A DNA stretch of 22,865 bases from a virus, in the IMG/VR virus record IMGVR_UViG_3300048013_000018, positions 1 to 22,865 of that record. One strand, given 5' to 3'. This document shows positions 9,170 through 22,865 of this stretch, piece after piece. The notes under the pieces are model-generated. The model had not been told where the DNA came from and did not search any database. It saw only the letters and a list, made by a program, of their open reading frames with translations. Position 1 is the first letter of the stretch; every line of letters starts with the position of its first letter. A program made the position numbers and the translations under genes.

Positions 9170-9580
9170 ATGCAACTAAGTCTTTTTGAAAGTATACCTG
9201 ATCAAATAGAAGATGGTAACAACAAGACCTGTAATAAATGTCATCGTACTCTACCCTTAACTGCTTTTTCTATGCACAGTGCTTCTAACTACCAAAGACC
9301 TGAGTGTAAAAAATGTAACAACGAACTTTCTATTATTCGTAACAGTTTACGGAAAAAAATAGAACCACCAGATAAAACTCATGTATGTCCTATATGCCTA
9401 TCTACGGAAGAACAAGTATCAGGTAAGGGTAATAAAAGGAATGGTTCATGGGTGCTTGATCATGACCACATTACAAACAGCTTTAGAGGTTGGTTATGTC
9501 ACAAATGCAATAGAGGTCTAGGAGCCTTTAATGATAACCCTAAATACTTAGAAAATGCAATCAAATACTTAAAGGAGTAA
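9170..9580 (+). CDS. Endonuclease VII-like HNH nuclease
   Basis: A 136-residue HNH (beta-beta-alpha metal) nuclease of the recombination endonuclease VII type. The C-terminal half has CPIC (73-76), LDHDH (96-100), FRGWLCHKCNRGLGAFNDNP (105-124) and a final AIKYLKE helix; the zinc is held by C73/C76 and C110/C113, and D97/H98 are probably catalytic. The N-terminal half holds another CxxC pair set, C21/C24 and C46/C49. It starts immediately after the reductase stop with no gap. Free-standing HNH genes beside phage reductases are often homing endonucleases, so this may be a mobile gene; a branched-DNA resolvase like T4 gp49 is the alternative. Which of the two it is cannot be read from sequence. 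Confidence 0.85.
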   Translation: MQLSLFESIPDQIEDGNNKTCNKCHRTLPLTAFSMHSASNYQRPECKKCNNELSIIRNSLRKKIEPPDKTHVCPICLSTEEQVSGKGNKRNGSWVLDHDHITNSFRGWLCHKCNRGLGAFNDNPKYLENAIKYLKE

Positions 9581-10171: not shown

Positions 10172-13100
10172 TTACCTTAATTGTCTTCTTACATCTCGTT
10201 TTTCTTTACGTTTCTGTATTCTAAAAAAGTTTTTCAATAAACGCAATTCTCTCATAGATAACTCAGTTGGTTTTTTATCTATACCTAACTCTTCTAACGC
10301 AACTTCAATATCTTGTAGTTGTACATTAGAGCTTCTTTTACTTATGTCATACATAAGAGCATGACGTTTATCGTCCTGAGAGCCTCTAAAAAGCTCTCTC
10401 ATAGCTCTCTTTCTAGCTCTTGATATTAAATTGCTTAAAAGTTTCTTCTTTGTTTTTTGAGGTAGTGTATCCCAATTAGGTTTATCTACAGCTTTTTCAG
10501 CCTCATACTCTAAGTGTTTAGTAATTATACGGTTCATAGCGTTGTTAGCTTCTGGTATATTTGCCTTAATGTTAGTCTTCCACTCAGGCATACCTATATC
10601 CGCAAATATTTTATCTAAAGAATTAGGTGCAGGTGATTCTCTATAACCAAACAATCTACCAATAGGGGAGCTTCTTTCTCTTTCCTCTAAAGCCCTTTGT
10701 TTAGTTATTGCCTCACCGCCTACATCTAAGCCTACAAACTCTCCTACTTTTTTACCTGCCTCTACAGTTTCTAATCCAGTAAAATAGTCTAGTGCATCAA
10801 ATATGTTCTCAACGTAACGCACTGAGTTATTTACAAACTCACTACCTATTTTTCTATCTGTTTCACTGTAAGCATCACCCATAGCAAATGCAGCAATTTG
10901 ATTGATGGGGTCTAAGGGTCTTGAGTATCCTGATAAATACAGAGAGCCAGCACCACTTAATAGTTTAGAAAGACCATCTGTTAGGTCAGGCACATTACCA
11001 GAAGCAGCATCTAAAGCCAGATCACCTAGCATCTTATTGGTTTCGCCTAGTGATCGTGTCAAGTTAGCAGGGCCAAAAGTATCTCTTATGTCAATATATA
11101 ATTCCTTTGGTACTGTACCGTCTTGACGAAGATGAGCAAATATTCTGCCTACACCTTTCCAAAAGCTAAACGGAAAGTCATAAAGTCTGGATATTACTTG
11201 ACCATCATCATCCCTATCTTCATGCCAAGCTAACCCTTGACCTAAGTTCTTCATTTCATACTCAGAGGCAGCATACCCTGCAGTTAAACCTATAGCACCT
11301 TTAGTGAACATATCAAATGGATCAGCTTTGTGCCTACCAGACTGAGTAAAATAACCATGCACTGCACTTATACCTGAGTAGTCAGCCATAAAAGCTATAG
11401 TGTTATTAAAGAATTGACCAAAAGGTATCATAGCACCAATTACAGGGTAGGCACGTGCAGCTTCTATTTCACCTGCAACTCTCTCAATTAAAGTTCTGTT
11501 AGACTTGTTAAACTCATTACCAGCATAAGACTTAGAAAACACATTACGTAGTGAGTCTTGCACTGCTAAAGATTGAACTTCAACAAACTCATCTGAGCGC
11601 ATTTTATCCCAATTTAAAGGCTGCGTACCAATCTTCTTACCTGCATCATCAAATACATCTGCCTTAGCACCTATAAATTCAGAATAACTCATGCCGTACT
11701 TTTTGATTATCTGTTTATCTATGTTGTACATATACTCTTGAGTTTTTGTAAGTATGTCTACAGCTTTAACACCATACACCGTTTGCATACCATCAACTAT
11801 TCTGTCAAAAACGCCGGGTTTTTCTATGTCATCAAAGTTAATATTAATAGTTTTAAGAACGTCTTTGCTGTCTACACCACCTGCAATATAACGAAACAAC
11901 TCTCTCTGTTGCTTAGGGTTGGCAGACAATAAGTTTAAAACCTCTTCCTTAGTTGCAAAGGGGTTCATTAAGTTGCGTATTTTTCTACCTTGTAAATCTA
12001 ACAAAAGCTTGGCTTTTTTACCTGCCTCTACAGCTTCTTCTTTATTTCCTACAAGGTGCTTTGCTGCCCACTCTCCTTTGTAAAGACTTGCTCTAAATAT
12101 ATCTGAAGCAGTAGACAATGCAGTAGTGTTTGACCAGCCATACAAGTTAAGAGCTACAGTTGCAGGGTGTGTAACAAGAAGCTGTATAAGACGCCTCTGC
12201 ATGGCTTCAAAGAAGCCCTCTTTCTTTTTCTCAGGAAGGTTCTTTATTGCCCCTGTATGAGGGTCTAACTCTCCTACCAATAAGTCTTCTGGTGTAATGC
12301 CTTTAGTATCTTTAAAAGCTCCCTTTTTTTGTTGAGCTTCTTTTAAGCCTTTCATAAACAGTCCTTGATAGTGCAGCTTTGTACCTGATGCACTAAGCTC
12401 TGCAGCAAGCACACTCATACCCTCGTCTAAGTCAGTTATACCTTTATGGCGATTGCTATACTTTAATAGTGTAGCATCATACAGGCGTTTTACTTCCTGC
12501 TTTAATTCATCAGGCATATCTTTAATTACTTCTTTTTGAAAGTGACTAACGTGCTTCCAAGGATCATTAGCTTTATCAAGCGTCAAACCTGCCTGTTTAA
12601 ATATAGTAAGAAGACCACCAAAAGACTTTTCATCACCTACTAGAAAAGCTTTAAATGCTTCATCCGTTTGTTCTGCTATAGCTTCAAGGTTTTCGTCAGA
12701 AAGGGTAGCAGAAATCTGTCTACCCTCCATTACTGTTTTAGCCCAATCTTCTGCTGCTATAGTATTTTTTCTAAGATTATTTACAAAAGCTGTCTTCTGT
12801 TCTTGATCAGCCATAATCTCGTCAAGCTTTTGTTTAGCTTCTTTTTTTGACTCTGTTCTAGCCAGTGTTTTAGCTGCAGCCTCTGCCCCTTGTGCTGCAT
12901 CAAATACATCAAGTGCTACTGACGTAGGTAACTTCTCACCGCTTAGATGAGGTATAACTTTAGCTAGTCCGTATCCAAAAAAACCACCACCTGCAATAAG
13001 AGCCGTATTTAAAAAGTTATACTCATCTTGAAAGCCAACTTTCATGTAGGCGGCTCTTTGTTGTATATCATCAATACCAATCATACCAAGGGTTTCTACT

Positions 13101-13819
13101 GCTGCACCATAAGCTAGTTCTTTACCTGCAGTCTTTTTAAGAGCCGTTTCTATTGCACCCTCTTCAACACCCTCTACAGCTTCCCTGTTCATAGTCTTAG
13201 CTAGAACTCTTCTACGTGCTTGATCTAGTTCTGCTTTAATTGCAGGAGATAAGTCAGAAACCTTTGCACCTCGTTTACCTGCTTTCTTAAGTATCTTATC
13301 TGTGGCTATCTTTAGCCCCTCTTCTGCTACCCCTGCTGCAGCTTTAGAAGCACCACCACCTAAAAGTTTACCTGCCCCAAAAGTTACTAAGTTAAGAGGG
13401 TCTACAATTAAAGCTACACCGTAGTCATACACATTGTCTAGCTTTTGTCCTAATGTACCGCCTTCAAAAGCACCCTTCATATTATCCCACAATTTGTAAG
13501 AGTTAAGAGCATTAAACTTTTCTTCATCGTCTGCTTTACTTAAATAACTAGCTTCTCCTAGTACACTAAGGGTATTACCAAAGTTAAACTTTCTGTTGTA
13601 ATTAACCCACTTGTCAATTACTTCTTGCCTGTCATAATTCTTCTCTGACATACCAAAGCGAGACTTCATTTGTCTCTCAATAATATTGTAGTTGTGATCT
13701 TCAGATAAATCAGTAAGCCCAAAAGAGCCTTCCTCACCCCCTGTGTAGGTCATAAAGTCAGGCTCTTGTTCTTGTTGTTTTTCTTTTTTATTGGTTAGGA
13801 AGTCATAAAGCTGTGACAT
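10172..13819 (-). CDS. Large internal virion / DNA-ejection protein (probable)
   Basis: A 1215-residue protein, the largest product in the window and the last of the - arm. It is largely helical, charged and Ala/Lys/Glu-rich. Moderately hydrophobic or Gly-rich stretches lie near residues 130-165 (VALIVDPLNLVTFGAGKLLGGGA), 270-290 (ALIAGGGFFGYGLAKVI) and about 550-575 (LLVTHPATVALNLYGW). A very large helical protein following a virion lysozyme and other virion genes fits the T7 gp15/gp16 group, which enters the cell with the DNA and builds a channel across the envelope. I see no catalytic motif. The start is coupled to the upstream stop (TAATG). The family is not recognised by eye; the structural role is inferred from size, composition and position. 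Confidence 0.65.
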   Translation of the reverse strand: MSQLYDFLTNKKEKQQEQEPDFMTYTGGEEGSFGLTDLSEDHNYNIIERQMKSRFGMSEKNYDRQEVIDKWVNYNRKFNFGNTLSVLGEASYLSKADDEEKFNALNSYKLWDNMKGAFEGGTLGQKLDNVYDYGVALIVDPLNLVTFGAGKLLGGGASKAAAGVAEEGLKIATDKILKKAGKRGAKVSDLSPAIKAELDQARRRVLAKTMNREAVEGVEEGAIETALKKTAGKELAYGAAVETLGMIGIDDIQQRAAYMKVGFQDEYNFLNTALIAGGGFFGYGLAKVIPHLSGEKLPTSVALDVFDAAQGAEAAAKTLARTESKKEAKQKLDEIMADQEQKTAFVNNLRKNTIAAEDWAKTVMEGRQISATLSDENLEAIAEQTDEAFKAFLVGDEKSFGGLLTIFKQAGLTLDKANDPWKHVSHFQKEVIKDMPDELKQEVKRLYDATLLKYSNRHKGITDLDEGMSVLAAELSASGTKLHYQGLFMKGLKEAQQKKGAFKDTKGITPEDLLVGELDPHTGAIKNLPEKKKEGFFEAMQRRLIQLLVTHPATVALNLYGWSNTTALSTASDIFRASLYKGEWAAKHLVGNKEEAVEAGKKAKLLLDLQGRKIRNLMNPFATKEEVLNLLSANPKQQRELFRYIAGGVDSKDVLKTININFDDIEKPGVFDRIVDGMQTVYGVKAVDILTKTQEYMYNIDKQIIKKYGMSYSEFIGAKADVFDDAGKKIGTQPLNWDKMRSDEFVEVQSLAVQDSLRNVFSKSYAGNEFNKSNRTLIERVAGEIEAARAYPVIGAMIPFGQFFNNTIAFMADYSGISAVHGYFTQSGRHKADPFDMFTKGAIGLTAGYAASEYEMKNLGQGLAWHEDRDDDGQVISRLYDFPFSFWKGVGRIFAHLRQDGTVPKELYIDIRDTFGPANLTRSLGETNKMLGDLALDAASGNVPDLTDGLSKLLSGAGSLYLSGYSRPLDPINQIAAFAMGDAYSETDRKIGSEFVNNSVRYVENIFDALDYFTGLETVEAGKKVGEFVGLDVGGEAITKQRALEERERSSPIGRLFGYRESPAPNSLDKIFADIGMPEWKTNIKANIPEANNAMNRIITKHLEYEAEKAVDKPNWDTLPQKTKKKLLSNLISRARKRAMRELFRGSQDDKRHALMYDISKRSSNVQLQDIEVALEELGIDKKPTELSMRELRLLKNFFRIQKRKEKRDVRRQLR

Positions 13820-15411
13820 TATTGATCTTCCTCATCAATTAAAGGTGCGCCTGTTGTAAAGTCATGTGAACTTCCCCACAAATCATCCCACAAGCGTTGT
13901 GCATCGCCTACCTCTGTAGGTCTAGGTGCTACGTAACGTTTTGAGCCATTTTCAAAGTACTTGCTACCGTACTCGTTAAACCAATCTTCTCTATCCTTTT
14001 TACTAGAAGGTCGTTCATTACCACTTGTATAAAGTACAGGTTCAGGCAAAGCAGGTACTACTGACTCTGGTTCTGGCTGTACAAGTAACTCATAGGTATC
14101 TGGATCAAACTCTGCAGGTGTTACAGGTTCACTACCACCTTCGTTACCACCTTCGTTACCTCCTTCACTACCACCTTCACTACCACCTTGTTCTTCTAAT
14201 TCACTTAAAAAAGCCTCTGTTGGCTGTATTGTGCCATCAACAATAATGAAAGGCAGTGAAGGATTAGCACTTAAAAACTCTTTTACTTTTTCCACATCTT
14301 CAGCACTATCTTCAGTCCTAGTAAAAGTATTGTCTATTATTAATTGCGCCTGTTCATCAGTTATTTCTTCATTAGTAACTTTTTCAATTATTTGTTGCTC
14401 TACAGTCATCCTAAGTGATGCTAAATAATCTGGCCCACCAAAGAACATTTCAGCTAAATTATTGTTTGCCCACAATTCAGCACGATCATCATAGGAGTCT
14501 CTTATAGCTTGCTCAAAAGCATTTCTAACAGTGTCATCTGTATCTTTCTTTAGAAGAATGTTATCCATAATTTCACTGGGTCTCAGAGCGATACCCATGC
14601 CTTCATCAGAAAGTCTAATTACATCACTGTAAGGCAGACCCGTTTCATTACCTTCATTGTCAACAAAATCTATACCGCTTAACAAATCTAAAGTACGAGT
14701 TTGTATGTAACTTTTTAACATCTTAGTGTTTTCTTTACTTTCACTAGAATAGCCTGTCTGAAATACACTTGTGTCAAAAGCAGCTAAATCTCCTGTGCCT
14801 CTAGGCATACCTCTGTAAGCTAACTCTCTAGTTTCATTAATAGATAAACCACCTTCATAGTCTTGATCTAAGAACCTTCTTAACTTTTCGCTCTCTCTTT
14901 CACCGCTTAAGTTATAACTTAATCTTTCTAAAAAGCCCATCTCTTCTGTATCAACAGGATCAGAAGTATCACGCATTTTAACTACTTCAAAAGCATCTTG
15001 TACAGCTTGTTCAATAGTTTTACCTTCTACATCATAATCTTCTATGCCTTCAAAAGCTTGTGTCATTAACTCTTCAGTCAAAGGTTCTCTATTTTTAGCT
15101 TGATATTCTTGCACAAGTTTAGAAAGCTCTAACACACTCTCAGGCCCATGTATTTCAAGTAACTGTATTACGTCTGAATCAGGTAAACCTGCCCCTTTTA
15201 TTCTTTGCGCTGCACTTTCAATAGTATCTTCTTTTGCTTGATTGTCAGCTATGGCTTTACGTCCATACGTAGCCATCCACTCTTCTTGTCTACGTTTGTT
15301 TTCTCTAAATTCTTTTTCTAAGAGATCACGTTTAGCCATGTACCCTTTGGCTGCACCAGCAGCTAAGGGCAACACTACGCCTTTTGCTATTCTACTTAAG
15401 TTTATAGCCAT
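13819..15411 (-). CDS. Probable internal virion protein with Gly/Ser/Glu linker
   Basis: A 530-residue acidic protein of unknown family. The N-terminus (about 5-30) is mildly hydrophobic, KGVVLPLAAGAAKGYM, followed by a charged, probably coiled-coil region. The middle is helical with many Glu and Asp. Residues 408-427 are a five-unit GGSE/GGNE repeat, then a Pro- and Glu-rich stretch and a compact-looking C-terminal part with DREDWFNEYGSKYF and RLWDDLWGSS. The linker separates two parts of the protein. It sits between the 190-residue gene and the 1215-residue ejection-protein candidate, with a GAGGGG ribosome site. T7 gp15-like function is a guess from position. Confidence 0.55.
   Translation of the reverse strand: MAINLSRIAKGVVLPLAAGAAKGYMAKRDLLEKEFRENKRRQEEWMATYGRKAIADNQAKEDTIESAAQRIKGAGLPDSDVIQLLEIHGPESVLELSKLVQEYQAKNREPLTEELMTQAFEGIEDYDVEGKTIEQAVQDAFEVVKMRDTSDPVDTEEMGFLERLSYNLSGERESEKLRRFLDQDYEGGLSINETRELAYRGMPRGTGDLAAFDTSVFQTGYSSESKENTKMLKSYIQTRTLDLLSGIDFVDNEGNETGLPYSDVIRLSDEGMGIALRPSEIMDNILLKKDTDDTVRNAFEQAIRDSYDDRAELWANNNLAEMFFGGPDYLASLRMTVEQQIIEKVTNEEITDEQAQLIIDNTFTRTEDSAEDVEKVKEFLSANPSLPFIIVDGTIQPTEAFLSELEEQGGSEGGSEGGNEGGNEGGSEPVTPAEFDPDTYELLVQPEPESVVPALPEPVLYTSGNERPSSKKDREDWFNEYGSKYFENGSKRYVAPRPTEVGDAQRLWDDLWGSSHDFTTGAPLIDEEDQ
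14131..14190. repeat. Five 12-base repeat units encoding GGSE/GGNE
   Basis: Five tandem 12-base units (ACTACCACCTTC and close variants on the + strand) lie inside the 530-residue gene. They encode residues 408-427, a flexible Gly-Gly-Ser/Asn-Glu linker. Units two and three read GTTACC, the others ACTACC, and the unit length keeps the frame, so copy number can change without breaking the gene. Confidence 0.95.
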
Positions 15412-15413
15412 CT

Positions 15414-15986
15414 TTACGCCCCTCTACTCATTAATCCCATACCGCCTTGTGGCTCTTGGGGTGGTGGCTGTGGACTATCCATAGGTTCTTGCTCTTCTCT
15501 CATCTCTTCAAACTCTTCTGTTTGTTCACTAGATAAAGCTTTTATAGTTTCGGACACTTCAGCCTTAGTGCCTTTATCTTTAATGCTTTTAAGCTTACGC
15601 ATAACCTTAGCTTTAACACGTGCTTTAGCTACTTCTTCTTCTTCTGCTTCCTCAGAGAAGAACTCTTCATATTCAATACCTGCCATATCAGCTATGCTGA
15701 CTATCTCTTTGTGTATTACAGGAGCAATAATTAAACCTACATCAATGCTGTGCAAGCCTTCAGCTACAGCTAAAGTTATAGTAGTATTAGTTAATACTTC
15801 TACAGGCAAACCCATCTCTAGTAAAAATATAGTGCTATCCATAAAAGCAGGTTTAGCCATATGATCTAGGTGAATTTTAATAGCTTCCTCTGGCACAGCA
15901 GTCTCAGGAGGTCTTTCCCAAGGGTAGTTCTTAGGTGTGTCAGTGAGAGATTGGCCGGGAATAGGACCACTTATTTTAGAGACCAT
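15414..15986 (-). CDS. Unknown virion-associated protein, 190 residues
   Basis: I do not recognise this protein. The first half contains a hydrophobic, probably helical section (about 50-95, with TIFLLEMGLPVEVL and DVGLIIAPVIH). The second half is highly charged: an acidic run SEEAEEEEVA at 111-120, a basic segment KARVKAKVMRKLKSIKDKG at 121-139, then acidic residues and a Pro-rich tail SPQPPPQEP near 171-179. It overlaps the lysozyme gene by 11 bases and is two bases from the next gene, so it is part of the virion operon. A chaperone or small structural role is possible; nothing in the sequence decides this. Confidence 0.6.
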   Translation of the reverse strand: MVSKISGPIPGQSLTDTPKNYPWERPPETAVPEEAIKIHLDHMAKPAFMDSTIFLLEMGLPVEVLTNTTITLAVAEGLHSIDVGLIIAPVIHKEIVSIADMAGIEYEEFFSEEAEEEEVAKARVKAKVMRKLKSIKDKGTKAEVSETIKALSSEQTEEFEEMREEQEPMDSPQPPPQEPQGGMGLMSRGA

Positions 15987-16746
15987 CTTGTACGGTATCC
16001 TTTTTGTAATTATTAGTGTACTCTATTGTTAATGCTTCTCTAGTAGGCATATTAGTTTTCTTTTTGTCAGGCTTTAAGTAGCTATTTACAATTACTCTAT
16101 TAGCTTCCTCTGGTGTTTCTGTTTCACGTAGCTTTTTAAGAGCAGACTTTTGATCACCTTTAGTTAATTCAAAAATAGAAAAGTCTACTCCTGCATCGTA
16201 ATCTCTAGGGTCTAAGTTGTTTTCTTCTACATACTTTTCAAAGTTGTACCTTCTATAGCCGGGCTGCAAACCTGTAAATTGAAAGACGTTAGTTCCTCCT
16301 TTAGAACCCCTGACTGTTGGTTTTAATTCATCCATAAACTTGAAACCGCCCGTTTCATAGTCGGCATTACCCGCCAAAGCTGCCGCTTGAAATGGCTTTA
16401 AGTTTAACTCACTTATATACCTAGCCATCATTTTTTCACCAAAGTTACTGGTGCTAACTTTTTTAGTTTTAGTCTTTTGTTTTTTATAAAGGTCATCATA
16501 TGTAGACATAGTGCTTGCATAAGATGTATCTTCACTACCAGACATATCTGCATCAGTCTGACTCATAATCTCATCTGCATCAGCAGTTAAGTCTTCTATA
16601 CTAGGAGACATTAAACCTTTAGAGCTTGACTTAGAGTAAACGTCTTTAATACCCTCAGTGATATCTTCACTTTTTTCAGGCACTACAGATGCTTTTATAC
16701 TGTCTGCAAAAGTCTCTAATCTGGCTCTATCTATAAAACTACTCAT
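15976..16746 (-). CDS. Virion-associated peptidoglycan hydrolase, phage tail lysozyme domain
   Basis: A 256-residue protein whose second half matches the phage tail lysozyme family (Phage_lysozyme2). Landmarks: LNLKPFQAAALAGNADYETGGF (about 115-135), with E131 the likely catalytic acid, then NVFQFTGLQPGYRRYNFEKY (153-172), DYDAGVDFSIFEL and a C-terminal helical part with TPEEANRVIVNSYLKP. The first 100 residues are polar and Ser/Asp-rich, likely a flexible region that places the enzyme in the virion. It probably opens the cell wall locally so the DNA-ejection proteins can pass. A role in final lysis is less likely because it is embedded among virion genes and has no signal peptide. The start follows an AGAGGG site. 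Confidence 0.82.
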   Translation of the reverse strand: MSSFIDRARLETFADSIKASVVPEKSEDITEGIKDVYSKSSSKGLMSPSIEDLTADADEIMSQTDADMSGSEDTSYASTMSTYDDLYKKQKTKTKKVSTSNFGEKMMARYISELNLKPFQAAALAGNADYETGGFKFMDELKPTVRGSKGGTNVFQFTGLQPGYRRYNFEKYVEENNLDPRDYDAGVDFSIFELTKGDQKSALKKLRETETPEEANRVIVNSYLKPDKKKTNMPTREALTIEYTNNYKKDTVQDGL

Positions 16747-16757
16747 ATTACCCTCTT

Positions 16758-18848
16758 TTAAAACTTATAGCCTAATATAGCAGAACCAATAGTTCCCCAC
16801 ATTTCAGCCTCACCCCTACGATCTGATGCACTTGCAGTAGTCTGTGCATTTTCCTTTGATGCAGTGGCACTGATGTTAGCAATAATTACATCGTTAATTC
16901 TATCTAACGAAGTCTCACTTGTTTTCCAAGCGTAAGACATAAGATCACGCTCACGTTGCCATACTTGATCTAAAGTACTGGCAGTAAAAGCATTGGCTGC
17001 TTTAGCATCCTGCATGTTAGCCTCGTTCTGTGCTGCAGTGTTGGCAGTAGATGTATTCTGCCGCCACTGTGCATTAGCTTGTGCTATGATTAAACCGTTC
17101 TGTGTATTAAACTGTTGCCTAGCGTTGCGCTGTTCTTCATTAAACTTCCGTATTGCATTTGTTTCAGATACAGCAAATTGCTCCATAGCGTTAGCTTGAG
17201 AGGTATTAAACTGTGATACTTGTGATGCCAACGTAGCCATAAACTCTTGTGTTTGATTTACGCTAGAGGCGTTAAACTGTTTAGCTGCATTATCTGCTGC
17301 AGCATCAGTTAAAATAGATTGCTGTAGTGCCTGTACTTTAAATAACTCAGTTTGCTGATCATTAGATAAATTAGTTAAATCCATCTGGAGAAAGTTCTTA
17401 GCGTTCTCTACAGAGGCTTGCTGTTGATTACTTAGGTTAGTCAACTCCATGTTAGATATAGCTGCAGCATCAGCCATAATCTTAGCATTCTTAGCACTAA
17501 GGTTTGTTAGATTGGCAGTCTGAGCCATCTTAGCATTCTCTAATGCAACCTGTTGGTCTGCAGTAAAGTTCATATTTGCTATATCACTAATTTTAGCTGC
17601 ATTAGTAACACGCGATTGAAAGTCTTGATTAAAGTCTATCTTAAGGAAGTCAGCCCGTTGTTGTGCAGCAAACATAGCAACCTGCTGACGGTTACTTAAA
17701 TTCTGGGCTTCAAATTGAGCTACAATCTGTGCGTCTTGTTGTGCAATAGGTAAGGCTGACTCCATCGCCGCCTGTACGATAGCTTGTCCTGCCATACTAC
17801 TAGAGCCTAGACCACGTGCATTCATAGCTGCTGTAGCGGCTCTCATGGCTCCTGCAGCCCATGCAGGGGTAGCACCGTCCTCAAAGTCATCCATTAAGTC
17901 ATCTAGTTGACCTTTTACACTTGCAGATTTTGAAGGGTCAGCTTGAGCAGCTTGTATCTCTGTGGCTTCCTTTACTGCTGCCATGTCTACAGCAGAGCCG
18001 CCTATAAGCTCACCTTCTTGTAAAGTACGTGCAGGAGGAACTACAACTTTAGTTGGGTCTGTAATTTGAGCTACGTCAAGCTTTCTACCTCCCAAAGTTG
18101 CAGGGTCTTGAGTGGCGGCGTCAACTGTAGTTGACACAGTGCCTTGTGCGCCAGTTGCACCCTGCAGTGCTGCCTCTGAAGCAGCTTGAGTACCAGTAGC
18201 TTGCATGGTAGCAGGGGTAAGGCCAGAAGGAGTTGCAGCTTGTTGTGTAACACTGGGAGAGGCAGCAGTAGCTGTACTAGCTGCACCTGCATCACCTGTA
18301 GTGGGATCAATAGTAGCACCTACAGTATTAGGGTCTATTGTAGCTACAGTTGTTGGCTGTGCTAGTTGTTCAGGTGTTTTAACTGCAGTAGATGTAAGGT
18401 TTTGTTGACCTTCAGTTAGTGCCTTAGCGGAAGCTTGCTGTTGCTCTTTGGTCTTTTCTTCTATAGCTTTAATCGTAGCAGGATCAGTCTGATCCATAGC
18501 GTACAGATCAGCAAGCTCTTGGTTGAGCGTGTCTAGCTTGTCTTGCATTGGTGTCATATTGGAACCGCCTACGGGTTTAGGTGAAAAAATCATACTTTTT
18601 TGACTGTCTGTAAGCGGAGTGTAACCTGTAGGAGGACGCATTATAGGAGAATTAGAAGGAGCTTGTGCTTGTTTTGCAGCAGCCTCTAGTTGAGCTTTTC
18701 TAGCATCCATAGCCTTAAACACACCAGAGGGATCACCTATTGCAAGCCTTGGGGCATTTAATTCTTCTAAAGACATATTGCCTACAGTGCGTTGTACGGC
18801 CTGTGCCTCAGTTTCACCGGGCTGTAGTATAGGTCTAAAAGCTGCCAT
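16758..18848 (-). CDS. Virion protein with a long 11-residue helical repeat
   Basis: A 696-residue Ala/Gln/Asn/Thr-rich protein of no family I can name. The N-terminal part (about 1-160) is polar and Gln-rich; 160-260 is a low-complexity Thr/Ala/Pro/Gly stretch; 380-590 is an unbroken 11-residue repeat; the end is Ala-rich with a short hydrophobic tail (GTIGSAILGYKF). In the repeat, LSNxQQ-type units recur at 383, 449, 471 and 493, and Phe recurs at 525, 536, 547, 558, 569 and 580. Such hendecads form right-handed coiled coils. The gene precedes the virion lysozyme and ejection-protein candidates, so it is probably structural: an internal tube, tail needle or ejection protein. Its ribosome site (GAAAGAGAA) is weak. 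Confidence 0.65.
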   Translation of the reverse strand: MAAFRPILQPGETEAQAVQRTVGNMSLEELNAPRLAIGDPSGVFKAMDARKAQLEAAAKQAQAPSNSPIMRPPTGYTPLTDSQKSMIFSPKPVGGSNMTPMQDKLDTLNQELADLYAMDQTDPATIKAIEEKTKEQQQASAKALTEGQQNLTSTAVKTPEQLAQPTTVATIDPNTVGATIDPTTGDAGAASTATAASPSVTQQAATPSGLTPATMQATGTQAASEAALQGATGAQGTVSTTVDAATQDPATLGGRKLDVAQITDPTKVVVPPARTLQEGELIGGSAVDMAAVKEATEIQAAQADPSKSASVKGQLDDLMDDFEDGATPAWAAGAMRAATAAMNARGLGSSSMAGQAIVQAAMESALPIAQQDAQIVAQFEAQNLSNRQQVAMFAAQQRADFLKIDFNQDFQSRVTNAAKISDIANMNFTADQQVALENAKMAQTANLTNLSAKNAKIMADAAAISNMELTNLSNQQQASVENAKNFLQMDLTNLSNDQQTELFKVQALQQSILTDAAADNAAKQFNASSVNQTQEFMATLASQVSQFNTSQANAMEQFAVSETNAIRKFNEEQRNARQQFNTQNGLIIAQANAQWRQNTSTANTAAQNEANMQDAKAANAFTASTLDQVWQRERDLMSYAWKTSETSLDRINDVIIANISATASKENAQTTASASDRRGEAEMWGTIGSAILGYKF
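17079..17705 (-). repeat. Region encoding the 11-residue repeat (about 19 units)
   Basis: Residues about 382-590 of the 696-residue protein can be written as consecutive 11-residue units with no insertion. Early units pair into a 22-residue super-period (TNLSNxQQ at 448, 470, 492); later ones start with (Q/E/K)F every 11 residues. The repeat is visible in protein but poorly kept in DNA, so it is old or under selection for structure. Confidence 0.85.
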
Positions 18849-20135: not shown

Positions 20136-21997
20136 TAGAATTTCCCTGTATTAATGTATAAACTTGACGATGATAGCGCCACACCAATAGCGTTAGATGC
20201 ACCCGCCGTAAGTGCTGTAGCAGTTACTGGCAACCCATAGACTGCGCCAGTAACAAGACTGCTTTGATTGGTGTTTATGCCACCAATTACTGTGACTTTT
20301 CCTGATGCGCCATCTGAAATTGACTCAGCCGCAATACCAACCCATGTAGGGTTGCCAGAATTAATAATTGATGAAGTCGCATTATAGTTACTGTCATTTT
20401 GAAAAAATGTAATACATTGGTTAGTGTCTGGATCAAAAACAAGACCGCCTATCTGTACGTTAATTTCTACAGCAGTTGCTGCTTCACCCGCAAAGAATGA
20501 AGTACCTGAAATCTGACCTTTAATTACATTGCCAAAATCTGTAGTTTGAGCTTCATAAAACAAAACCATTTGATTTTTGTTACTGTCAAAAACAAGCGCA
20601 TTGGCTTGCGAAGAGCCTACTGCAGTTAAAGTAACTTTCGTGCCAAAAGATATTGATGTACCACTTACTGTTCCGACCCTAGCCCTCAGTATGCTGCCAA
20701 CAGAATACACATGCAAAAATTTATTACTGTTTGAGTCAAAAGCTAAACTCATTCCCCTATTAGCAGTTGTTGCTCCTGAATCTATAGTTGTCTCTGAACC
20801 CCAAGATATTGATGTGCCACTTACTGTTCCAACGGCAGCAAAAGGTTCGTAATCGTCATAGTCGTTCCATTGAGCAACAACTTTATTTGAGTTAGAATCA
20901 AACTCACATCTTATGGTATAAGAGTTGCAAGTAGCACCAGACGGGCCAGCCGCTGAACCAAAACTAATTGATGTTCCACTGACTGTTGCAACTTTGGCTA
21001 GAACAGAATCATCGTTGTGTTTATAAACAATGACACATTTATTAGCATTACTGTCATAACAAATATCCAGTGCCTCTACAACTCCACCGTAAAATTCTGT
21101 TTGAGTGCCGAAGGTAGGCGTAGTCCCGCTTACAGAAACAACTACGGCATAGGCATGATTCGCATCAGATTCATTCCTAAAAACACAAACTGCTCTTTGA
21201 GCATTAGTATCATAAACTGCTTTCATCCTTCTTGGAATTTGAGATATAGCCACAGCAGTGCCAAACGAAATGCTTGTTCCTGACACCGTTCCAACACGGC
21301 AAGTTAAATAACCGCTATTCTGTTGATCCCGATAGAAATAAATAACCTTGTTATTTGCGGTATCATAAACAATAGCCTCCGTACCGTCATGTGCGCCAGT
21401 AAAATTAGTTGCATTAACTTGCACCGGGTCGCCAGCATTTGCACCCATCGTGGAAATTGTGCCGTCAATATTTAAGCCGACTAAAGCACCAGCACTAATG
21501 CTACCACTAGCAGTAAAAGTTTGTGAACCGCCACTTATTTTAGTACCCATGTAGGTTGCCAATCGTGACATAGTGGCTTTTCTATTTGTTCCACCTGCGC
21601 CATCATCAACAACCATTAGGTCTGCGTCTACTAATGCAGCCCCAATATCAGTACCCCCATCAATATCTAAATCTGATATACTGATACTTCCGTCTGGGAA
21701 ATTTACTGTGCCTGTTACAGTACCACCAGTAAGAGGTAGTGCATCTGCTGATTGGAATGTACCAAAAGAAACAATCTCTACTGTGTCATTAGCTGTAGCA
21801 CCAGAGGCCAGCACAACGTCTGACCCATTAGTAGCTGTAAAGTCTGCCCTAGCTAAGTGTACACCGTTAAGATATACAGACACAAAACCCGGCGTGTAGC
21901 CTTGGGTAGTAAATGTAGTTTGATTTGATGTGGCTGTATATACGTCCCGACTTTGTGTAGCCTGTGGGGTAGGTATTGCGCCGATATATCCTGACAT
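20135..21997 (-). CDS. Tail fibre or spike with a seven-repeat beta-propeller
   Basis: A 620-residue receptor-binding protein candidate. Residues 1-100 form an N-terminal attachment part rich in Thr, Gly and Asn. A conserved block follows (DLDIDGGTDIGAALVDAD and GGTNRKATMSRLATY, 109-153) that is shared with the neighbouring fibre gene. From about 200 to 560 there are seven repeats of about 52 residues, each with a (F/Y)DSNxNK-type strand (Asp at 212, 263, 315, 367, 421, 471, 522) and, in most, a VGTVSGTSISFG-type strand. Seven such repeats fit a seven-bladed propeller. The end (560-620) is Gly/Ala/Ser-rich and probably a trimerising or distal tip. Its ribosome site is AAGGA. The receptor is unknown. 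Confidence 0.82.
   Translation of the reverse strand: MSGYIGAIPTPQATQSRDVYTATSNQTTFTTQGYTPGFVSVYLNGVHLARADFTATNGSDVVLASGATANDTVEIVSFGTFQSADALPLTGGTVTGTVNFPDGSISISDLDIDGGTDIGAALVDADLMVVDDGAGGTNRKATMSRLATYMGTKISGGSQTFTASGSISAGALVGLNIDGTISTMGANAGDPVQVNATNFTGAHDGTEAIVYDTANNKVIYFYRDQQNSGYLTCRVGTVSGTSISFGTAVAISQIPRRMKAVYDTNAQRAVCVFRNESDANHAYAVVVSVSGTTPTFGTQTEFYGGVVEALDICYDSNANKCVIVYKHNDDSVLAKVATVSGTSISFGSAAGPSGATCNSYTIRCEFDSNSNKVVAQWNDYDDYEPFAAVGTVSGTSISWGSETTIDSGATTANRGMSLAFDSNSNKFLHVYSVGSILRARVGTVSGTSISFGTKVTLTAVGSSQANALVFDSNKNQMVLFYEAQTTDFGNVIKGQISGTSFFAGEAATAVEINVQIGGLVFDPDTNQCITFFQNDSNYNATSSIINSGNPTWVGIAAESISDGASGKVTVIGGINTNQSSLVTGAVYGLPVTATALTAGASNAIGVALSSSSLYINTGKF
20318..21400 (-). repeat. 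Seven propeller-repeat units within the tail-fibre gene
   Basis: DNA repeats are visible on the + strand as ATTGATGTxCCACTxACTGTT near 20650, 20805 and 20965, each encoding VSGTSIS. Spacing between the Asp residues of the DSN motif is 51, 52, 52, 54, 50 and 51 residues. Units 2, 6 and 7 are more diverged than 1, 3, 4 and 5. The repeated DNA could recombine and change the blade number. Confidence 0.85.
21539..21673 (-). repeat. Shared fibre block, copy in the propeller fibre
   Basis: Encodes residues 109-153 (DLDIDGGTDIG to GTK). The same 45 residues occur at 22523-22657 in the neighbouring fibre with 44 of 45 identical, while the DNA differs at about 32 of 135 bases. It is probably a small folded connector between the fibre base and the distal domain. 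Confidence 0.9.
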
Positions 21998-22006
21998 TAT
22001 TTTTCC

Positions 22007-22865
22007 TTATGAATTAACCATGCCGTACATAGTGATTGTTCCTGATGCTATGTTACCACTTGTAAAACTAAATTGTGCTGCGTTTACGACTGTGGCAGCT
22101 TTAGTTTTTCCATTACCATACTGCGTAGAATAGTTTTCAAGTGTACCGTTTTGAATAGTAATAACACCATTATTATAAACATATGTCGGTGCATTTAAAT
22201 GAGGCCCATTTATATGTATCTCTCCAACCAGACCTTCACCTGCTGCACTGCCCATACCACTGTAGCCAAATGATATGTACGTGCTGTCGCCAGCACTTAC
22301 TGCGGCAGTACCACCAAGAAGGTAACTGTCACTAGCTGATAAATAATTACTCCCACCATCTACAGATAATCTTAGTCTAAGCCATTGACCGTCTGTAGCA
22401 GGTAAAAGATTAGCAATCATAAAAACATAATTATCATATTTGCTACTGTCAAAACCTGTAAAAGAAAGGGTGGCTGAACTACTAGCATCACTAGTAGCAA
22501 TAAACTCCATACCTCCACCAACTTTAGTGCCAATATAAGTTGCAAGCCTAGACATTGTGGCTTTACGATTAGTGCCACCTGCGCCGTCATCCACAACCAT
22601 CAAGTCTGCATCAACTAAGGCTGCACCAATGTCTGTGCCACCGTCTATGTCTAGGTCAACCAAAGGTATTGAACCATCTGGGACAATTAGACTATTTGCA
22701 GTAACACTACCACTAACTGTTACGTTACTACTAAACGTACCACCAGATGCCTTACTTACTGTATCACTTGTTTCAAAGCTACCGTGGGACACAATAACAA
22801 TTTGATCACCTTCAGTAGCACCTGTTTCTAGTGTAACAGTAGAACCATTCGTGGCAGTGTAATCT
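22007..22865 (-). CDS. Tail-fibre protein, N-terminus outside the window
   Basis: The - frame stays open to the window end, so this gene is cut at its 5' side. The GTG at 22792 is not the start: the upstream frame reads DYTATNGSTVTLETGATEG and aligns with FTATNGSDVVLASGATAND of the next fibre gene. The visible 286 residues contain this motif, the DLDIDGGTDIG and GGTNRKATMSRLATY block, and then a beta-rich C-terminal domain with LSFTGFDSSKYDNYVFMIANLLP, LRLRLSVDGGSNYLS and a Gly/Asn-rich end. Such a C-terminal jelly-roll-like domain is common in marine phage fibres and may bind a receptor. It is the first of two adjacent fibre genes. Confidence 0.75.
   Translation of the reverse strand, partial: DYTATNGSTVTLETGATEGDQIVIVSHGSFETSDTVSKASGGTFSSNVTVSGSVTANSLIVPDGSIPLVDLDIDGGTDIGAALVDADLMVVDDGAGGTNRKATMSRLATYIGTKVGGGMEFIATSDASSSATLSFTGFDSSKYDNYVFMIANLLPATDGQWLRLRLSVDGGSNYLSASDSYLLGGTAAVSAGDSTYISFGYSGMGSAAGEGLVGEIHINGPHLNAPTYVYNNGVITIQNGTLENYSTQYGNGKTKAATVVNAAQFSFTSGNIASGTITMYGMVNS
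22523..22657 (-). repeat. Shared fibre block, copy in the truncated fibre
   Basis: Second copy of the 45-residue block; the only amino-acid change is Met to Ile before GTK. Codons differ at most positions where the code allows. Confidence 0.9.

Follow-up and report, generated by a model that had tools for sequence, protein, structure and literature searches.

The window analysed here, which is the whole of a viral record of 22,865 bases, encodes ThyX and a DnaB-like helicase, along with a ribonucleotide reductase, an endonuclease I and a family A DNA polymerase that has a DnaJ-type insertion. HMO-2011-type podoviruses are a dominant marine virus group, among the commonest in the ocean. The traits of this type, namely the DnaJ-type insertion in the family A polymerase, the ribonucleotide reductase, the endonuclease I and the gene order, are all present in the window and, because gene order and homology match, we assign its virus to the HMO-2011-type marine podoviruses. 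Directly after the ribonucleotide reductase gene, an endonuclease VII-type ORF (9170-9580; PF02945, E 1.8e-15) is a candidate free-standing homing endonuclease. Our study concerns a long repeat protein and the genes that follow it downstream:

16758..18848, minus strand: ORF of the 696-aa repeat protein, a homologue of HMO-2011 gp25 and a proposed ejection/pilot protein
15976..16746, minus strand: phage tail lysozyme (PF18013, E 3.8e-13), in the variable hydrolase slot of the module
15414..15986, minus strand: 190-aa conserved companion protein, present alongside the repeat protein in 93 of 112 loci
13819..15411, minus strand: 530-aa protein, in a gp15-like position by synteny
10172..13819, minus strand: 1215-aa protein, in a gp16-like position by synteny

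Homologues and gene neighbourhood

The 696-aa protein is homologous to HMO-2011 gp25 (YP_008320287.1), with 52% identity across 65% of the query. Together with the homologues in CRP-2, CRP-603, HTVC103P, CHOED and phiM6, gp25 shares about 25–60% identity in the matched part and the gene order of the window, but array lengths differ from that of the window protein by multiples of 11 and the N-terminus is unrelated or much longer in some. None of 27 homologous phage records carries an informative annotation for the gene, the label being "hypothetical protein" in all but one called "huntingtin" and one without annotation. Pfam and PHROGs gave no significant match to the repeat protein of the window, and a PDB profile search gave nothing significant, its top hit (KMP-11, E 0.06, on the Phe half of the array) being put down to chance helix composition. 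When tblastn was run transitively from the homologues in CHOED and phiM6, it returned the same closed set of phages, with no informative annotations. The repeat protein thus belongs to an uncharacterised family with an unusually clear modular architecture:

17868..18848, minus strand: N-terminal region, residues 1-327, rich in Ala/Thr/Gly/Pro, variable in length and sequence in the alignment and probably largely disordered
17736..17867, minus strand: helix-turn-helix, residues 328-371 (PAWAAGAM...ARGLGSSSM...ALPIA), with invariant alignment columns; predicted helix 329-344, a turn, and a helix from 352
17034..17729, minus strand: hendecad array, residues ~374-605, with register position 1 at residue 374
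17073..17300, minus strand: Phe half of the array, residues 517-592, with Phe at register position 9
16761..17033, minus strand: C-terminal helix and Gly-containing tail, residues 606-696, from AlphaFold2 and the alignment

Residues 328-371 are the most conserved block of the protein in the alignments. A crude hydropathy test found no strong transmembrane segment in the repeat protein, the best 19-residue value being 0.92 (residues 351-369). Both ends of the protein vary among relatives. One viral sequence (L004, 990-1775, compared with window positions 17982-18848) is 98% identical over residues 290-696, yet its N-terminus of ~55 residues is unrelated, a difference that, judged from the two sequences, is an N-terminal exchange among close relatives. 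HMO-2011 gp25 carries a C-terminal extension of ~70 residues (L023:15357-15578) beginning CWVAREVYGEGDPRW, the sole case among the relatives examined.

The order repeat protein, hydrolase slot, ~190, ~530 and ~1200 aa is conserved, and recurs in phages of SAR116, Roseobacter, Pelagibacter, Vibrio, Pseudoalteromonas, Sinorhizobium and Rhizobium. The hydrolase slot holds a cell wall hydrolase in CRP-603, and in HMO-2011 no hydrolase is annotated there. Podovirus ejection clusters consist of a gp14-like gene, a gp15-like gene and then a larger gp16-like gene, and a peptidoglycan-hydrolase domain can shift between their members (PMC8954989). In order, size and hydrolase presence the module resembles such clusters, an analogy to which we found no sequence or fold link: an AlphaFold2 model of the 530-aa neighbour (pLDDT 58, pTM 0.32), made to look for a gp15 fold, had no Foldseek match, and the 1215-aa neighbour was without match in PDB and PHROG searches. 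At 14128-14189 the 530-aa gene also has a tandem repeat of 12 bp whose translation is a Gly-Gly-Ser/Asn-Glu linker.

Immediately upstream of the repeat-protein gene are fibre genes. Two adjacent tail-fibre-type ORFs have in common a 176-bp segment (21494-21669 and 22478-22653; 72% identity) with the near-identical module DLDIDGGTDIGAALVDADLMVVDDGAGGTNRKATMSRLATY, which from its sequence appears to be an exchangeable fibre segment. A 620-aa fibre ORF contains ~52-residue repeats with the motif GTVSGTSISFG (20647-20992; 31-bp cores spaced 156 and 159 bp), a sequence pattern suggestive of a repeated beta-rich fold.

The 11-residue array and its length

The initial annotation had placed an 11-residue periodicity at 17079-17705 on the minus strand, which corresponds to residues 590-382 of the ORF. 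The repeat is indeed there, although its signal reaches slightly further, over residues ~374-605, and comprises about 19-20 back-to-back hendecads. The expected self-identity is 0.09; the observed values are 0.19 for lag 11 (z 5.1), 0.25 for lag 22 (z 7.7) and 0.19 for lag 33 (z 4.6), with no excess at any other lag from 2 to 39. The reported Phe positions (525, 536, 547, 558, 569 and 580) are exact; not one of 20,000 shuffles produced six Phe at +11 spacing, and all six are invariant in the homologue alignment. TNLS does occur at 448, 470 and 492 as described, but these are 22 residues apart and not 11. Sliding scores place a 22-residue repeat of two alternating units up to about residue 500, and confine the pure 11-residue repeat, in which Phe occupies a single register position, to ~500-600. 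The periodicity extends to the homologues, lags 11, 22, 33 and 44 leading in nearly all relatives examined; a missing signal in homologues, which would have counted against the initial interpretation, was not what we observed.

The repeat exists at the protein level, since Tandem Repeats Finder detected no 33- or 66-bp array in the region and the excess of nucleotide identity at lag 66 is greatest at codon position 2 (0.49) and least at position 3 (0.33). On the same two results we dropped recent DNA tandem duplication as the origin of the array.

Measured from directly behind the conserved PxWA block to a point downstream of the array, the length differences between the window protein and 21 relatives aligned with MAFFT were 0, –44, –55, –66, +88 and +110 residues, and a wider set of viral contigs added –11 and –22. 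In that wider set, the anchor of two sequences (L029 and L031) was matched falsely within the array and their MAFFT values (–66 and +88) were used instead; the count excludes 20 sequences lacking the second anchor. The phiM6/CRP-3 lineage gave raw differences of –67, –68 and –78, but 1-2 residues are absent there in the turn before the array, and the array changes are therefore –66 and –77. All observed changes in array length are thus multiples of 11, odd and even, from –77 to +110. Because the sequences are related, these changes represent a handful of independent events, not dozens. Nothing else argues as strongly that the unit of 11 residues is a structural one, since array lengths of relatives differ by whole units only, and these changes were absent from the initial annotation.

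Helical pattern and predicted structure

AlphaFold2, run on residues 290-696 with 60 sequences, produced essentially only helices at low confidence (pLDDT 62, pTM 0.21), the main ones spanning 329-344, 352-402, 408-426, 431-492, 496-619 and 623-692. The model supports a helical array, and a beta-solenoid was dropped because hardly anything but helix was predicted. Foldseek of the model against the PDB found nothing below E 4.7. The array had been described as one unbroken right-handed hendecad bundle of the order of 30 nm. The register does run without a break; continuity of the helix does not follow, as the low-confidence monomer breaks at ~427-430, ~493-495 and ~620, and its longest helix has 124 residues. 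The length is right as arithmetic only, 19 x 11 x 0.15 nm giving about 31 nm if the array were one straight helix.

Classical right-handed hendecad coiled coils have an 11-residue period and an alpha-helical unit, as the array does, and are predicted to show a hydrophobic stripe of period 3.67 (11/3). The array lacks this single stripe (p is 0.85 for the window protein, and none of 26 relatives reaches p<0.01), so the bundle proposed at first retains its unit and helicity but not its expected core. A 2.75-residue hydrophobic signal is present instead, reaching p<0.01 in 21 of the 26 relatives; it describes a four-position hydrophobic pattern and is by itself no proof of a barrel. The two halves do differ in character, as had been suggested, with amphipathicity at 3.6-3.67 residues seen in the Phe half (517-592) and missing in 352-450.

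A helix of 3.67 residues per turn gives fixed directions to all 11 register positions. The hydrophobic fraction is 0.53 at position 6 (229 degrees), 0.50 at position 8 (65 degrees), 0.48 at position 9 (164 degrees) and 0.30 at position 11 (0 degrees), the last being mostly Ala when not hydrophobic. Adding the amide-rich positions 4 and 2 gives two stripes, {4,8,11} and {2,6,9}, about 160 degrees apart, both with 3-4-4 type spacing as in a hendecad core. On one face (positions 1 and 5), which is rich in Gln and small residues, Gln is concentrated towards 98 degrees (p<0.0005); roughly opposite, on a charged/Asn face (positions 3, 7 and 10), charged residues point towards 293 degrees (p 0.014), and Asn accounts for 66% of the residues at position 10. 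Asn and Gln make up 28-29% of the array and Lys/Arg 7%.

Possible functions and comparison with known ejection proteins

Podovirus ejection (internal virion) proteins are carried in the virion and ejected before the DNA. Our preferred reading, with a probability of about 0.45, is that the virion carries the repeat protein and ejects it, and that its two-faced hendecad helices join side by side in a long tube-like assembly, with one face lining the lumen. The repeat, its register, the stepwise length and the conserved gene order are established and helicity is supported; virion location, ejection, oligomeric state, lumen and DNA transport are what we infer; no virion proteomics of HMO-2011-type phages was found in the literature searched. 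The conserved helix-turn-helix (residues 328-371) is followed by the array, whose stripes {4,8,11} and {2,6,9} would contact neighbours on both sides of each helix, the two contact stripes allowing it to pack on either side. The Gln/small and charged/Asn faces sit between the stripes, several copies would build the long tube-like helical assembly with one face towards the lumen, and the tube would lengthen the short tail so that DNA could pass through the cell envelope. As one unit makes three whole helical turns, gain or loss by 11 would leave the pattern of faces intact. That the array lines a tail, as suggested initially, is unlikely in a short-tailed phage, while a trans-envelope role would fit the gene neighbourhood.

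The main rival, which we regard as a doubtful but serious candidate, is a structural strut or molecular tape: a solid bundle, or a strand running along the other core proteins in the head or along the periplasmic channel, without a lumen of its own. The all-helical prediction and the gene neighbourhood suit this, two contact stripes would also serve for packing between other proteins, and PMC8954989 calls T7 gp16-N a molecular tape for gp15. However, a regular Gln face and a quantised length over hundreds of residues exceed what a tape needs, and the partner proteins show no matching 11-residue period. It is improbable that the array is the shaft of a tail fibre or adhesin, the stalk of an external fibre, despite the fibre genes next to it and the lack of any record whose annotation gives the gene a function excluding a fibre. 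The conserved block lies in the interior of a protein with two variable ends, whereas a fibre would keep a conserved tail-attachment domain, and the gene stays with the hydrolase/190/530/1200 set in phages with differing fibre genes. Least probable, by a small margin, is an amphipathic helix that lies on or curves membranes in the manner of alpha-synuclein or apolipoproteins. Such helices would share the 11-residue periodicity and helicity, but need one amphipathic face of period 3.67, and this reading is disfavoured because that stripe is missing (significant in none of the 26 relatives); the Lys/Arg content is also low.

Taken at their broadest, the 11-residue repeat and its stepwise changes in length point to a helical strut or conduit of modular build that would aid DNA passage through the bacterial envelope. 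To our knowledge, little has been learnt about how short-tailed phages beyond the T7 and P22 groups get through the Gram-negative envelope, and a part that varies in whole three-turn units only is a directly testable handle on this step.

T7 gp14 is an internal virion protein that forms an outer-membrane channel. The repeat-protein gene heads a cluster whose order and gene sizes would fit an ejection module, although its neighbours have no demonstrable gp15 or gp16 homology. Profiles of gp14 and the repeat protein show no similarity (hhalign probability 0.2-1.5%), and at 696 residues the window protein lies far from the 196 of T7 gp14 and outside the range of about 180-240 residues of the gp14 family (PMC8954989). 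The helices of gp14 tend to 3.6-3.67 amphipathicity and have no 2.75 signal, opposite to the window array; in 220-residue windows of T7 gp15 and gp16 neither signal is strong. T7 gp14 has a helix-turn-helix element (PMC11784390); the trait compared is its two-helix antiparallel hairpin when ejected, and the low-confidence model of the window protein has a predicted helix-turn-helix at 329-402. Membrane helices of the gp14 type were not predicted in the repeat protein (19-residue hydropathy at most 0.92 in the crude test). The repeat protein thus sits like T7 gp14 but falls outside the gp14 family in sequence and size, and neither sequence nor fold searches linked it to a known ejection protein.

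The DNA pilot protein H of phiX174 forms a decameric tube. Its tube domain (residues 151-271, PDB 4JPP) is helical and has Asn/Gln-rich hendecads, as does the array, and the tube lumen is lined mainly by Asn, Gln and Arg (PMC7354561). The H-tube hendecads, in the 44 residues printed in PMC7354561, have a 2.75 signal (p<0.001) and no 3.67 signal (p 0.29), so that both proteins combine the 2.75 hydrophobic pattern with high amide content and lack the 3.67 stripe. They have no sequence relation (hhalign probability 0.3%). Whereas H has three hendecads, a transition and then 11 heptads over about 17 nm, the window array has about 19 hendecads; H acts in crossing the cell wall, and an envelope role for the window protein is what we would expect by analogy; phiX174 is an ssDNA microvirus and the window a podovirus. 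In our preferred reading the repeat protein would work like the H tube while standing outside the H family. A wider claim, that it represents a class of podovirus ejection proteins not seen before, in which a two-faced hendecad helix forms a self-assembling, amide-lined, DNA-conducting tube of modular length to which evolution adds or from which it removes 11-residue units, convergent with the phiX174 H tube, is tentative and we think it rather unlikely as a whole. If the tube reading is true, dsDNA podoviruses and ssDNA microviruses would have converged on one amide-rich hendecad design.
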